Positions 56,923-64,000 of a stretch of 64,000 nucleotides of DNA are shown here, in pieces. Source of the DNA: Thermodesulfobacteriota bacterium (GTDB lineage Bacteria; Desulfobacterota_D; UBA1144; Nemesobacterales; UBA2774); the NCBI GenBank assembly GCA_040754335.1, contig JBFMCV010000007.1, forward strand, positions 1 to 64,000. Reading direction: 5' to 3'. Below the pieces are notes generated by a model. The model searched no databases. It was not told the origin of the DNA and saw nothing but the letters and a program-made list of their open reading frames with translations. The position numbers were made by a program, and so were the translations under genes. Within the stretch, counting starts at the first letter, position 1. Every line of letters begins with the position of its first letter.

Positions 56923-57552
56923 TCATCGAGGGCAGGAAGAAAGGCAGTCGTACTCGGCTGTTTTACATCCCTCCATGCACTCGCCGCGCTTTCCGCCTTC
57001 ACCCGAGAACATGGAGCAGTTCCCCTCACATTCCCCGAGCCCGGACGTGCAAGTCGCGGTGCAGGGGTTATTCTCGTAGACCCGGGGGTCTAACGTCGGA
57101 GCGGGAGCCGGATTCGCGCACAGGTTGTTGCATTTATCGAGCTCATCACCGCAGTCCCTTTCGCAAGCGGCCCTCTCCACGCTCGCGGCGCCTCCCCCTA
57201 CGTGTTTCGTGCACGACTCGATGCAGTCCCTCGACCTGTACTCGCACGCGACAGCGCAGGTCTTGTCGCTGTAAGGCCCGGGTTTGGGCGTGGGACGCGG
57301 CGTAGGGTGGAGACAACTCTCGTCGCATGCGATCTCCTCATCCGCGCAGGCTTCCAGACACTCCCTCTTTTTCCCGCTCTCGACCCCTCCGCCTACGATC
57401 TGGGTACAGGAGAGCTCGCAATTCTTCCGGGAGTCATCACAGCTTTCGGGGCAAGGAACTTCGGGGGCATCGTCCGCAGCGAGGGCTAAGTGCATGAAAA
57501 TAACCAGCAAGAGGAAGTGCAGTATCCCGAACGCCTGAAGGGTTCTTATCAT
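56923..57552 (-). CDS. Exported protein with three 8-cysteine modules
   Basis: 209 residues; I recognise no family. A signal peptide (about 1-25) is followed by three modules at 34-80, 99-145 and 164-207. Each follows C-x3-C-x6-C-x3-C-x15-C-x3-C-x6-C-x3-C (the central gap is 12 in the third). That makes 24 cysteines and no others in the mature part. Module starts lie exactly 65 residues apart, joined by Pro-rich linkers (HPTPRPTPKPGP; NPAPAPTLDP). Paired CxxxC motifs on two helices suggest a disulfide-stapled helical hairpin per half-module, four disulfides each. Function, and whether it binds metal or acts as a toxin or structural protein, is unknown. Confidence 0.8.
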   Translation of the reverse strand: MIRTLQAFGILHFLLLVIFMHLALAADDAPEVPCPESCDDSRKNCELSCTQIVGGGVESGKKRECLEACADEEIACDESCLHPTPRPTPKPGPYSDKTCAVACEYRSRDCIESCTKHVGGGAASVERAACERDCGDELDKCNNLCANPAPAPTLDPRVYENNPCTATCTSGLGECEGNCSMFSGEGGKRGECMEGCKTAEYDCLSSCPR

Positions 57553-57703: not shown

Positions 57704-59041
57704 ATGGACCGGGAGAGGCTCAGGGCTGATGCGATTTCCATTTTCAAGGCCGGACTCGGGGCGGTCGAGCCCGGTAACGCGGTAAGAAAACATCTTGGGG
57801 TAAAGGAAGGCGTCTTTGAAATAAACGGCAGGAAATACACGCTGCCGGACTTCGAGAACATATACGTGATAGGTATGGGGAAAGCCGCGGCCCCGATGGC
57901 ACGCGCCGTCGAGGACATACTCGGGGACCGTATCACGGCAGGGATAATAAACGTAAAGTACGGCCACACGGCCGCGCTGAAGAAGGTCAGGATAAACGAG
58001 GCGTCCCACCCCGTGCCCGACGAGGCGGGTCTGAGGGGCGCAATGGAGATCGTGAGCCTCCTCGGAAAAACTGGTGAACGCGACCTCGTGATATTCCTGA
58101 TTTCGGGAGGAGGCTCGGCGCTTCTGCCGCTGCCCGCGGAAGGTATTACGCTCGGGGACAAGCAGGTTCTCACAAAGAGACTGCTCGAATGCGGTGCGAC
58201 GATACACGAGATGAACGCGATAAGAAAACACGTTTCCCGGGTCAAAGGCGGGAGGCTCGCGAGACTCGCCTATCCCTCGGCGCTCATCTCCCTCATCCTC
58301 TCGGACGTCATAGGGGACGACCTCGACTCTATCGCCTCGGGCCCTACGGTGCCGGACACGAGCACGTTCGCCGACTGCCGGAATATCATCGCGAAGTACG
58401 GGCTCGAACGGAAGCTGCCTCCGGCGATTGTCACATACATAGAAAGCGGTATGAACGGCGGGGCCGAGGAGACGCCCAAGCCCGGAGACTCCGCATTCAG
58501 CCGCACGCAGAACGTCGTGGTCGGGAGCAATATAGCGGCAGCCATGGCGGCAAAGGAGAGGGCGGCTGAGCTCGGATACAATTCCCTCATCCTCTCAACG
58601 TTTATAGAGGGCGAAACCGGGGCCGCCGCGAAGCTCCACGCGGCGGTAGCGAGGGAGATAATATCGTCAGGGAACCCCGCGGCACCGCCCGCCTGCGTAA
58701 TATCGGGCGGGGAAACGACAGTCACTCTCGAAGGAAAAGGTACCGGAGGGAGGAACCAGGAATTCGCGCTCGCGTCGGCAATCGACATAGACGGGCTGGA
58801 AAACGTGCTCGTGCTGAGCGCCGGGACGGACGGCACGGACGGCCCCACCGACGCGGCCGGGGCGTTCGCCGACGGAGCTACCATGGAAAGGGCACGCAAG
58901 CTCGGACTCGACGCGCGCAGGCACCTCGTCGAAAACGACTCCTACAATTTTTTCAAGCCCCTCGGCGATCTCCTGATAACCGGGCCGACGAACACGAACG
59001 TCATGGACCTTAGGGTGCTTTTAGTCTCGAAAATCCAATGA
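57704..59041 (+). CDS. Glycerate 2-kinase, MOFRL type
   Basis: Phosphorylates D-glycerate, typically to 2-phosphoglycerate, in serine or glyoxylate metabolism. N-terminal domain with IYVIGMGKAAAPMARAVE, SHPVPDEAG and LISGGGSALLPLPAEGI, then NAIRKHVSRVKGGRLA. The C-terminal MOFRL domain carries ISGGETTVTLEGKGTGGRNQE and AGTDGTDGPTDAAGAF. 445 residues, normal. With glycine cleavage genes elsewhere in the window it hints at glycine-serine-glycerate flow, an inference. Confidence 0.93.
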   Translation: MDRERLRADAISIFKAGLGAVEPGNAVRKHLGVKEGVFEINGRKYTLPDFENIYVIGMGKAAAPMARAVEDILGDRITAGIINVKYGHTAALKKVRINEASHPVPDEAGLRGAMEIVSLLGKTGERDLVIFLISGGGSALLPLPAEGITLGDKQVLTKRLLECGATIHEMNAIRKHVSRVKGGRLARLAYPSALISLILSDVIGDDLDSIASGPTVPDTSTFADCRNIIAKYGLERKLPPAIVTYIESGMNGGAEETPKPGDSAFSRTQNVVVGSNIAAAMAAKERAAELGYNSLILSTFIEGETGAAAKLHAAVAREIISSGNPAAPPACVISGGETTVTLEGKGTGGRNQEFALASAIDIDGLENVLVLSAGTDGTDGPTDAAGAFADGATMERARKLGLDARRHLVENDSYNFFKPLGDLLITGPTNTNVMDLRVLLVSKIQ

Positions 59042-59168
59042 ATTCTGGCAAGTGTATGATAATATATCGCAACACATAGCATTCGAGCGGGGCCGTCCCC
59101 TGCAAAAAACTGTCAGACCGAAGACTCTTCTGATATACTTACAAAACTAAACGAAAGGGCAAGTTTAA

Positions 59169-60371
59169 TTGAATCCCATCCAGTTCGTGACGGACATAAT
59201 AAAAGAAATAGGCGTCCCCGGCCTTTTCGATATCGCCTTTATGTCGCTCCTCATCTACGCGCTGCTTGTTTTATTCAACAAGACGAAGGCGCGTTTCGTG
59301 CTCACAGGGGTGATAATAATAAGCATCGTCTATCTCCTGGCGCGTCAGTTCAACCTCGTGCTGACGACCTCGGTGCTACAGACGTTCTTCGCGGTAATAT
59401 TCATCGCCCTCATAATCATTTTCCAGGAGGAGATAAGGCAGTTCCTCGAGCAGATCGCCCTCTGGAGCCTGAACCCGCAGCTCGCCCTCGAAAGATCCCG
59501 CGGCTCGTCCCGCGAGGAGATCGAGGTGCTCGTAAACACGATCACCGACCTCGCCAAGGACAGGATCGGGGCGCTCATCGTGCTTCCGGGGAAAACAACA
59601 ATAGAGAGGTCGGTCGAAGGCGGGAAGACGCTTAACGGGAAGCTGAGCGAGCCTCTCCTCAAGAGCCTCCTCGACCCGCACTCCATAGGACACGACGGGG
59701 CGATAATCATAGATAACGGGAACGTGGTTAAATTCTCCTGCCACCTTCCGCTGTCGAAGAACTTCGCAATGCTTCTCAACAGGGGCACGCGGCACGCGGC
59801 CGCCCTGGGGCTCTCGGAGCTGAGCGACGCGCTCTGCCTGGTGGTGTCGGAGGAAAAGGGGACCATCTCCGTCGCGAGGAACGGGGAGCTGAGGGAGATA
59901 GGGAGCGAGCAGCTCAACCTGATCCTCGAAAAATTCTACAGCGAGGTGAAGCCTATAAAGAAAAGAAAGCACTGGTTCACTTTCTTTACGAAGAACTACA
60001 GGGAAAAAGCGATTGCCGTGCTGATGGCGGTCGCACTGTGGTTCGTGTTCGTGCACGAATCAAAGCTCGTCTACAGGACCTACAACGTCCCGGTCAAATA
60101 TACGACGCTGCCGTCGGACCTGAAGGTCGACGACATCAAGCCCGAGACCGTAAAAGTCACATTCCTAGGGCCGAGGAGGGCGTTTTACTTCTTCAACGAG
60201 AAGGAGGTCGAGCTCTTCCTCAAGATACCTGAGGCGAGGAAAGGGATAAAGACCGTGAATATATCTGAATCGAGCTTGAAATTCCCCAAGGACATCTCCC
60301 TCGAAAATATAGAGCCGAGGAGGGTGCTCGTAAGGATAGACAACGTTGCGCCGAAAGAGGAGAAGAAATAA
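59169..60371 (+). CDS. cdaA: Diadenylate cyclase CdaA fused to a YbbR/CdaR domain
   Basis: Predicted to make the second messenger c-di-AMP from two ATP. TTG start nine bases after AAAGGG. Three N-terminal membrane helices (about 20-85), a DisA_N/DAC domain (100-255) with the DGA motif at D176, and a segment GTRHAAALGLSE at 206-217. There the usual R-H-R reads R-H-A. A fourth membrane helix (about 280-296) is followed by one YbbR domain (300-392). In Firmicutes the cyclase CdaA and its regulator CdaR are separate, adjacent genes, CdaR having several YbbR domains. Here a single 400-residue chain carries both. No glmM follows. Confidence 0.9.
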   Translation: MNPIQFVTDIIKEIGVPGLFDIAFMSLLIYALLVLFNKTKARFVLTGVIIISIVYLLARQFNLVLTTSVLQTFFAVIFIALIIIFQEEIRQFLEQIALWSLNPQLALERSRGSSREEIEVLVNTITDLAKDRIGALIVLPGKTTIERSVEGGKTLNGKLSEPLLKSLLDPHSIGHDGAIIIDNGNVVKFSCHLPLSKNFAMLLNRGTRHAAALGLSELSDALCLVVSEEKGTISVARNGELREIGSEQLNLILEKFYSEVKPIKKRKHWFTFFTKNYREKAIAVLMAVALWFVFVHESKLVYRTYNVPVKYTTLPSDLKVDDIKPETVKVTFLGPRRAFYFFNEKEVELFLKIPEARKGIKTVNISESSLKFPKDISLENIEPRRVLVRIDNVAPKEEKK

Positions 60372-62099: not shown

Positions 62100-63551
62100 T
62101 CATCCGGCATACTTCTCAACTGCCCCGACGAGGTCGGCCGACCCGAAGGGCTTCGTAATAAGGTCGCTCGCCCCCGCCATCTTTATCTTCATCTTATCCA
62201 GGACCCCGGCTTTCCCCGAGAGCATCACGACCGGCACTTCCTTCGTTAGGCCGTGACTCTTGATCACCTTGCAGAGCTGGTAACCGTCCATGTGGGGAAG
62301 CCTGATATCGACGAATACCAGGTCGGGGATAGCTTCGTTGAGCCTGGCCAGGGCCTGCATACCGTCACTTGCCGAAACCACCTTATACCCGGCACGTTCA
62401 AGGCTTATCCTCATGATCTTCCTGACCGTCGGACTGACGTCTACTATAAGGACCGAGCCCCTGTTTTCCTTCATCCTGTTATCATGCCCATCAGGCTCGG
62501 CACCGTTCATTGAGTGCGCTGCCTGGGAGGGTTCTTCATGCGAAGGAGAATAACCGTCCCCGCTCGAACGCCGGTCTGATTCACCGGACGGTTCGAATGC
62601 TCTGTCCGGAACCCGTTCGGAACCGACCGGCTCCCGGGCGCTTTCCCCGGTGCTTTCATTTGACTGAGCGTCCGGGTGCGGATCGGGATTCTCCATATCA
62701 ACGCCGTCAAGCACATTATCCGTGAGTAATCCGGGGCCGTTGTTGCTGCCGTTATCTTCCGCAAACGGACCTGCTTCAAGCGGCGGGCTTTCAAGCCCTC
62801 CTGAGCCCGACTGAGCGGCGTTCACGTCGGTATCCTCTTCGCTCCCGCTGTTCTCTTCTTCAAACATAAGTCTTTCACCGGCAGGAGAGAATGGTAAATC
62901 AGTATCCCCGCCCTTCTCAACCGTGAAGTCGAAAACAAAATCCGGTCCGGGCTTGTTATCTTGTCCGGTATTATCATCGATTGCATTCTGTGCCGGTACT
63001 TCCGTAAAATCCGTTCCGGAACCGAGACCGGGGTTCGAAAGCATTCCTTCCGCATCCGACACATCGTCGACATCTTCATCCGAATCTGGCCCGTCCGCAT
63101 CGTTCTGTCCATAATATTCGGCTAATTTATTTCTGATCGATCTTTCGGAGGCGACGACGGGCTTGATGTTCTTGCCCGTGATAAACCCAAGGTCGTCTAA
63201 CATTAAAATATTCGAGGGGTCGGAGACTGCTATCGTCAGATCAGCGCCATCGACGCTTATGGGAACGAGAAATTTCTCGAGCGCCGTCTCACGGGGAATG
63301 AGCCCGATCACGCTCCGGTCGGTTTCGCAGCCGTCGATATCCATGGACGGGACCCCGTACTCCTTGCTCAGGAATTCGACAAGCTGCTGCTCCTTAACGT
63401 AGCCGAGGGCGGCAAGGGACTCGCCCAGATCGCAGCCGCTCTCTTTACCCGATTCGACAGCTTCCCTTATCTGCTCGAGGCTGACCAAACCTTCCCTGAC
63501 CAGCAATTTTGCCAGATTAGTTCTCACAACGGAGAGATGAGCAATTATCAT
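62100..63551 (-). CDS. MshEN-domain protein with long acidic linker and C-terminal receiver domain
   Basis: About 483 residues from ATG at 63551. Residues 1-145 match the MshEN/GspE N-terminal domain (TNLAKLLVREGLVSLEQIRE, DPSNILMLDDLGFITG), which in other proteins can bind c-di-GMP or precede pilus ATPases. Then comes a 200-residue disordered, Asp-, Glu-, Ser- and Pro-rich linker. The last 120 residues are a CheY-like receiver with phospho-acceptor Asp in VFVDIRLPHMDG, Ser in MLSGK and Lys in ITKPFG. The acidic pair at the start reads VDV instead of the usual DD, so magnesium binding may be altered. There is no output domain. Pairs with the helical gene downstream. Confidence 0.82.
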   Translation of the reverse strand: MIIAHLSVVRTNLAKLLVREGLVSLEQIREAVESGKESGCDLGESLAALGYVKEQQLVEFLSKEYGVPSMDIDGCETDRSVIGLIPRETALEKFLVPISVDGADLTIAVSDPSNILMLDDLGFITGKNIKPVVASERSIRNKLAEYYGQNDADGPDSDEDVDDVSDAEGMLSNPGLGSGTDFTEVPAQNAIDDNTGQDNKPGPDFVFDFTVEKGGDTDLPFSPAGERLMFEEENSGSEEDTDVNAAQSGSGGLESPPLEAGPFAEDNGSNNGPGLLTDNVLDGVDMENPDPHPDAQSNESTGESAREPVGSERVPDRAFEPSGESDRRSSGDGYSPSHEEPSQAAHSMNGAEPDGHDNRMKENRGSVLIVDVSPTVRKIMRISLERAGYKVVSASDGMQALARLNEAIPDLVFVDIRLPHMDGYQLCKVIKSHGLTKEVPVVMLSGKAGVLDKMKIKMAGASDLITKPFGSADLVGAVEKYAG

Positions 63552-64000
63552 GCCACTGCGCAAAAAGGGAGCGATGTTTTATAACATACTGTAATTATTG
63601 CATTATACCACCCACAAACCCGCTCTATATACCTAACAAAAGCTGACAAAAAACGTCAATAATATGAAATCAATGCGCAGTTGACACCCGTACGGTGCGC
63701 CTGGTACGGGAAGTGAAACCTTCTCCTTTTCTAAGGGGGAGGGGAAATATGCATCCTTCGGCAGGCTCACGTCTACGCTGAAGCTTAGCCGGGCAGGCAG
63801 GATGAACGTCGCAGCCGGAACCCTCTCCAGCGTGCAGGAAGATTCAGTATGGACTCCTGTTGCAATGGACGGCAGACACAATTTATCGGTGGAGTTTCAT
63901 AAACACTCGGGGAATGTTTAATTTTTAGAATGCTTTGCTTAAGTTTTAGGCACTTTTAATTTGGGACTTCTCTTATAAGCCCCTTTTATCATTGATTGAA
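63552..64000. other. Window-end spacer, no gene seen
   Basis: Contains a degenerate family C hairpin (about 63723-63742) and a CATCCTTCGGCAGGCTCACG...GGATGAACG piece related to family B. The last 100 bases are AT-rich with nothing recognisable. Confidence 0.55.

Follow-up and report, generated by a model that had tools for sequence, protein, structure and literature searches.

Architecture of the locus

The window analysed here is a 64-kb stretch of DNA, and it carries a gene that encodes a diadenylate cyclase (DAC) domain and a YbbR domain in a single chain. The fusion gene, its parts, and the gene upstream of it are as follows:

57704..59041, + strand: glycerate 2-kinase-like gene, 127 bp upstream of the fusion; possible co-transcription
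59154..59159, + strand: Shine-Dalgarno-like AAAGGG, 9 bases before the TTG, read from the sequence
59169..60371, + strand: DAC-YbbR fusion gene, TTG start, 400 aa
59205..59435, + strand: CdaA_N membrane domain, residues 13-89, three N-terminal transmembrane (TM) segments (Pfam PF19293, hydropathy)
59538..59888, + strand: DAC domain, residues 124-240 (Pfam PF02457, AlphaFold, Foldseek)
59691..59702, + strand: intact HDGA, residues 175-178 (sequence, alignment)
59784..59804, + strand: GTRHAAA, residues 206-212; R-H-A at 208-210 replaces R-H-R
59847..59855, + strand: SEE cation-site motif, residues 227-229 (named as in the available text of PMC12974146)
60006..60071, + strand: fourth TM segment, residues 280-301 (hydropathy; homologous to the CdaR membrane anchor by hhalign)
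60087..60338, + strand: YbbR domain, residues 307-390, predicted to lie outside the membrane, the side following from the TM count

The first-pass annotation had described a cyclase and a YbbR domain joined by a fourth membrane helix, and Pfam, hhalign, and hydropathy agree on that arrangement. CdaA_N scores 33.6 bits (cut-off 23.8) and the DAC domain 116.1 bits (cut-off 27); the YbbR domain is marginal, with 19.7 bits when searched alone and 23.3 in a genome search against a cut-off of 22.3, and among the 11 Dadabacterial orthologues it reaches E<=0.01 in seven and exceeds the cut-off in none. Because of this marginal score, profiles were compared with hhalign—the fourth TM segment and YbbR domain of 12 fusions matched the TM segment and first YbbR domain of CdaR with a probability of 98.8 and an E value of 6.3e-17 over 122 columns, where the CdaR side consisted of two separate CdaR sequences. 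The fusion protein consists of a CdaA-like half (three TM segments and the DAC domain) and a second half that corresponds to CdaR from its membrane anchor through its first YbbR domain. The AlphaFold model is reliable in the DAC domain only (pLDDT about 80-91, against about 35-45 in the YbbR part), and whole-protein structure was set aside as evidence; with the DAC model, the top 50 Foldseek hits were all DAC structures, most of them CdaA/DacA, at an rmsd of 1.4-2.3 Å.

The intact DGA and the altered R-H-A reported earlier are confirmed, as HDGA and R208-H209-A210 match solved CdaA structures in a gap-free alignment; where CdaA has GxRHRxA, the window protein reads GTRHAAA. Its score against the CdaA model TIGR00159 is 184.2, below the cut-off of 188.8 (the canonical paralogue of its own genome scores 237.7), and at 17.3 bits it falls short of the NCBIfam DacZ model. 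Full-length orthologues with 83-95% identity occur in four named Candidatus Dadabacteria records.

The fusion gene stands outside any cdaA-cdaR-glmM operon; its neighbours are the glycerate kinase-like gene and genes on the opposite strand. The former has the Pfam domains DUF4147 and MOFRL, scores below the cut-off for NCBIfam glycerate 2-kinase, and adjoins the fusion in 6 of the 11 Dadabacterial loci compared. On the minus strand of the window, 56923-57552 encodes a 209-aa cysteine-rich protein without a Pfam match, a neighbour kept in 5 loci, and 62100-63563 encodes a protein with MshEN and response-regulator receiver domains.

Other predicted c-di-AMP components of the genome

The source genome (3.26 Mb, 98% complete), which belongs to Candidatus Dadabacteria, encodes three DAC proteins. 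Besides the fusion there is a canonical CdaA (277 aa, motif GTRHRAA), whose gene precedes that of a separate CdaR (326 aa) in the cluster ftsH-folP-cdaA-cdaR-glmM-pdxJ (ftsH, glmM, and pdxJ were named from their sequences alone), and a DacZ-like protein of 201 aa with GSRHMAA. The window gene is a paralogue of canonical cdaA. It had been implied that the fusion takes the place of separate CdaA and CdaR proteins; the canonical cdaA-cdaR-glmM operon in the same genome speaks against this, and with separate cdaA and cdaR also present, the lineage has undergone more than a plain merger of cyclase and regulator.

The earlier statement that the 64-kb window has no phosphodiesterase gene nearby and no DHH protein besides RecJ (C7:40367) is correct; the genome, however, has two more DHH proteins, one of 328 aa (DHH-DHHA1, NrnA type) and one of 442 aa. 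No PgpH (PF07698) was found in the genome, and its only RCK_C match is one potassium channel with TrkA_C. A search for c-di-AMP riboswitches gave none in this genome, and hits in 4 of 60 relatives and 1 of 16 fusion-related genomes; riboswitches being this rare, they were dropped as receptor evidence. Elsewhere in the genome, a calcineurin-like phosphoesterase gene (L003:722-1375, minus strand, contig C1) lies 11 bp downstream of the DacZ-like gene on the same strand, and is a candidate c-di-AMP phosphodiesterase.

Distribution and phylogeny

Within the phylum, the fusion occurs in 11 of 57 genomes: 8 of 16 in the family of the window's source, 3 of 7 in family f2, and 0 of 34 elsewhere. All 11 of these Dadabacterial orthologues have R-H-A, which together with low dN/dS rules out sequencing error or decay as its origin. 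For a wider search, the orthologue alignment was run against 386 genomes (329 of them outside the phylum) and 26 genomes of one outside family; the fusion counts from it are lower bounds, as they cover, among the matches listed, those that scored highly or lay in long reading frames. Outside the phylum, the matches listed include full-length RHA fusions in G229, G340, G154, G191, G671, G682, and G573 (the last split at contig ends) and RHS fusions in G143, G227, G080, and G365, and RHA/RHS homologues occur in at least six families. At least four YbbR fusions among the matches listed keep RHR (G167, G304, G364, and G193). Across the 131 distinct CdaA-type sequences fetched, which are not a random sample, the third motif residue is R in 108, A in 18, S in 4, and K in 1.

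When the third motif residue was masked in a tree of 81 sequences, the 22 RHA/RHS fusions formed one clade (support 100/100), and all 26 YbbR fusions (these 22 and the four with RHR) formed one larger clade (99/99); L145, labelled as an RHR fusion by its tail length, falls elsewhere in the tree and is excluded from the four. Because the RHA/RHS clade nests inside a YbbR-fusion clade with RHR members, the fusion predates the loss of the third Arg on this sampling, and the change from R to Ala or Ser took place once within an older YbbR-fusion clade. The four RHR members also rule out fusion and RHA as a single event. As to whether R-H-A tracks the fusion, it follows one sub-clade of fusions, and the four others keep RHR.

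Residues H175, D176, G177, G206, R208, H209, D220, S227, and E228 are invariant in 80 of 80 sequences. Five positions—D169, G174, F189, H192, and A210—distinguish the RHA/RHS class from 54 other CdaA-type sequences; they also set it apart from the four RHR fusions, barring a single H at 192. The change from A to F at 189 alongside R to A or S at 210 resembles a swap in side-chain volume; we infer this side-chain packing, since the model is reliable in the DAC domain only. H192 occupies the place of Tyr187 in Listeria monocytogenes CdaA and L193 matches Leu188; in the available source text, that Tyr stacks on the adenine and the Leu188 backbone holds it. The adenine-stacking Tyr of the L. monocytogenes and Staphylococcus aureus enzymes, which is His in the class, is L, F, or I in most canonical sequences sampled.

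Several further DAC arrangements were seen during the survey. In family f8 (G043-G056), none of 14 small genomes (0.8-1.1 Mb) has a DAC match, compared with 43 of 43 other genomes of the phylum; c-di-AMP synthesis seems to have been lost there. G004 encodes a 951-aa AMP-binding (acyl-adenylating) enzyme (L067:6122-8977, minus strand) with a C-terminal DAC domain of 55.4 bits containing DGA and GSRHSSA; a second DAC-like stretch ahead of it was seen by eye only, similar frames of 963-971 aa occur in G038 and G039, and in G004 the opposite strand carries a DacZ-like gene at a distance of about 200 bp. A fourth DAC of G005 (L228:9598-10335, minus strand) has 245 aa, RHR, no evident CdaA_N, and a very long tree branch (3.4).

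Gene neighbourhoods of the RHA/RHS class

In G340 (family f228), TreY-TreZ-DAC/YbbR-DHH-DUF5752-TreT lie on one strand and the DHH start overlaps the DAC stop by 4 bases; TreY and TreZ exceed their TIGR cut-offs, and TreT and the NrnA-type DHH match their families below cut-off. A DHH protein gene is directly downstream of the fusion in three genomes of this one family (G340, G671, and G573). Other members of the class have different sets of genes near the fusion: a trehalose-phosphatase and a TreT-like gene in G682; TreS-maltokinase, a GlgE-like gene, and MgtE in G143; GlgC, a GlgE-like gene, and GlgB in G229; and GlgB in G080 and G365. Among the Dadabacteria, G005 has MscS-MgtE-DAC/YbbR with divergent GlgE-like, TreS, GlgB, and TreZ genes, G004 has a neighbourhood of the same kind, and G003, G033, and G035 have MgtE. 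The genes called GlgE-like are presumed to be so, in part from their size, as they passed no NCBIfam model.

With one common query set, trehalose or alpha-glucan genes were found in 8 of 22 neighbourhoods of RHA/RHS fusions, against 2 of 40 arbitrary neighbourhoods from these same genomes (Fisher p = 0.0025), none of 20 around stand-alone RHR DACs (p = 0.0027), none of four around RHR fusions, and none of two around DisA. MgtE or MscS occurs in 7 of the 22, against 0 of 40 and 0 of 20 in the arbitrary and stand-alone RHR sets. Neighbourhoods were unequal in length; among the arbitrary ones, 33 reached at least 10 kb, and all 40 were picked by contig number, not randomly. The 20 stand-alone RHR neighbourhoods include that of the divergent 245-aa DAC of G005 and several from related genomes that lack the fusion. 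The sugar-gene queries came from the fusion neighbourhoods themselves; with queries from other loci only, a sugar match was obtained in 7 of 18, where L209 was matched at 25% alone and L213 not at all. The neighbour categories were picked after the neighbours had been seen, and the hypothesis came from the same neighbourhoods except for the later-fetched G671, G682, and G573, which have sugar genes in 1 of 3 and DHH in 2 of 3. Five of seven lineages have at least one neighbourhood with a sugar gene (Dadabacteria, f228, f95, f167, and f32; none in f106 or f143). The RHA/RHS class, then, often adjoins trehalose/alpha-glucan genes, MgtE/MscS, or a DHH phosphodiesterase.

Fourteen of the 22 neighbourhoods have no sugar gene, including those of the window's genus, G154, and G191. 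The neighbourhoods of G000, G028, G029, G030, and G040 gave none; an initial count covered 18 of the 22, and the other four (G028, G029, G035, and G039) contribute no further sugar gene and one MgtE. Since the sugar linkage is absent in the window's genus, an osmotic role there is drawn from its orthologues only. In G003, the glycerate 2-kinase-like gene follows MgtE and precedes a glycosyltransferase that resembles glucosyl-3-phosphoglycerate synthase weakly (60 bits, cut-off 262); this might, weakly, fit another compatible solute.

Proposed activity of the variant cyclase

From the altered motif, the first-pass annotation had drawn two options, a variant active site or weak c-di-AMP production. 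The former is the better of the two—a clade that includes several bacterial families has the change in fixed form, and purifying selection on it is strong. The dN/dS of the fusion is 0.038-0.085 in four of five pairs (the fifth is saturated), and that of canonical cdaA is 0.039-0.113. We give a probability of roughly 0.55 to the reading that the window protein is an active, osmolyte-linked DAC variant belonging to a distinct RHA/RHS DAC-YbbR sub-class; in more general terms, the class is a conserved variant of an enzyme already known, found in a genomic association that is new.

The third Arg is not universal among DACs: one haloarchaeal DacZ has RHH and Dadabacterial DacZ-like proteins have RHM, and Haloferax volcanii makes c-di-AMP with DacZ as its DAC, according to the available text of PMC6741144. 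Evidence against an active enzyme comes from mutants: exchange of RHR for AAA abolishes activity in M. tuberculosis DisA/DacA, B. thuringiensis CdaS, and M. bovis CdaM (accessible portions of PMC3328451, PMC4568413, and PMC13022847). These precedents are triple changes, and no substitution of the third Arg alone turned up in the literature consulted. In Leptospira CdaA, activity is abolished by R203A, most likely the first Arg of the motif (PMC12974146, available text). The presence of a c-di-AMP riboswitch in just 1 of 16 fusion-related genomes and the 14 neighbourhoods that have no sugar gene also weigh against the osmolyte-linked reading. The residue named as a phosphate contact in the ApCpp structure from S. 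aureus is the Thr before RHR (PMC6368335, in the part available), and its equivalent, T207, is kept in the window protein.

The loss of a residue from a motif described as essential in the source texts available, along with a canonical CdaA or other DAC in most fusion-carrying genomes, would also fit a pseudo-cyclase, that is, a non-catalytic DAC domain serving as a membrane-bound sensor of ATP or c-di-AMP while canonical CdaA makes the signal. We regard this as unlikely. A pseudo-enzyme would be expected to lose catalytic residues here and there, yet apart from the third Arg none of the catalytic positions varies; in three genomes the fusion is directly followed by a DHH phosphodiesterase gene; and in two draft assemblies, G340 (99% complete) and G573 (93%), no DAC was found besides the RHA protein. 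The closed genome G191 has the RHA fusion, an RHW DacZ-like protein, one sub-threshold match, and no other DAC.

It is rather improbable that the protein is a weak, redundant diadenylate cyclase with no special role, its neighbours being coincidental or reflecting the common clustering of energy and storage operons. The other DACs in most genomes, the post hoc choice of neighbour categories, and the lack of sugar genes in the window's genus, G154, G191, G227, and others speak for it; against it, sugar genes recur in five of seven lineages with different genes and layouts and are found in none of the 20 stand-alone RHR neighbourhoods. Quite improbable, finally, is an altered product or substrate (another cyclic or linear nucleotide, or a preference for ADP, conferred by G174, F189, H192, and A210), which would suit changes that cluster at the nucleotide site, where H192 replaces Tyr187 and A210 belongs to the phosphate motif, but not the retention of L193, equivalent to the Leu188 said to hold the adenine in the source text available, nor the absence of the Tyr from most RHR CdaA proteins as well.

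Relation to known systems

The window protein shares with CdaA/DacA (TIGR00159) the three-TM CdaA_N, the DAC fold, HDGA, SEE, and GTRH; it differs in R-H-A, in a TIGR00159 score below cut-off, in its C-terminal TM segment and YbbR domain, and in lying outside a cdaR-glmM operon. With CdaR/YbbR proteins it shares a TM anchor followed by a YbbR domain, but it has one such domain instead of several, covalently joined to the cyclase. The RHR YbbR fusions of G167, G304, G364, and G193 have the same architecture and belong to the same larger clade; unlike the window protein they keep RHR, and none of the four has sugar genes nearby. The archaeal-type DacZ/CdaZ proteins also have a third motif residue other than Arg (H, M, V, and W among those seen), but lack CdaA_N, have a different N-terminal part, and carry G-S/T-R-H-x in another class. 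The possibility that the fusion had already been described proved partly right: the available text of a review (PMC10243994) reports CdaA-CdaR fusions in some streptococci, which likewise have cyclase and CdaR in one chain but come from another phylum. In literature that was mainly non-subscription, we found neither RHA/RHS DACs nor trehalose operons with a DAC described.

Proposed mechanism and significance

If the window protein is an active, osmolyte-linked cyclase, c-di-AMP would be made with H175, D176, G177, T207, R208, H209, S227, and E228, and F189 would fill the space left by the lost Arg. The covalently attached outer YbbR domain could set the dimer state of the DAC domain in response to the state of the envelope or turgor, and the resulting c-di-AMP might tune osmolyte homeostasis (trehalose/glycogen and ions) apart from the housekeeping CdaA-CdaR-GlmM circuit. 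Extended in this way the proposal becomes tentative, and we hold it with less than even confidence: RHA/RHS DAC-YbbR proteins may form a separate osmolyte branch of c-di-AMP signalling, in which the outer YbbR domain responds to the state of the envelope or to turgor and acts directly on a remodelled active site in the same chain, c-di-AMP controls trehalose/glycogen synthesis and not betaine/potassium uptake, and the fusion is the sole DAC in some lineages.

Diadenylate cyclases are commonly recognised by RHR as a signature motif, and a clade with a fixed Ala or Ser and all other catalytic residues kept is a natural test of the third Arg. This clade spans several distantly related groups and appears to supply the sole DAC in two draft genomes. 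The role of YbbR in CdaR is called unknown in the available text of the review cited above (PMC10243994); by fixing a 1:1 arrangement of cyclase and YbbR, the fusion offers a direct way to ask what that role is. In the source texts available, c-di-AMP in osmoregulation is best known so far for the uptake of potassium and compatible solutes—the neighbours of the RHA/RHS class suggest that c-di-AMP is also linked to the synthesis of compatible solutes.
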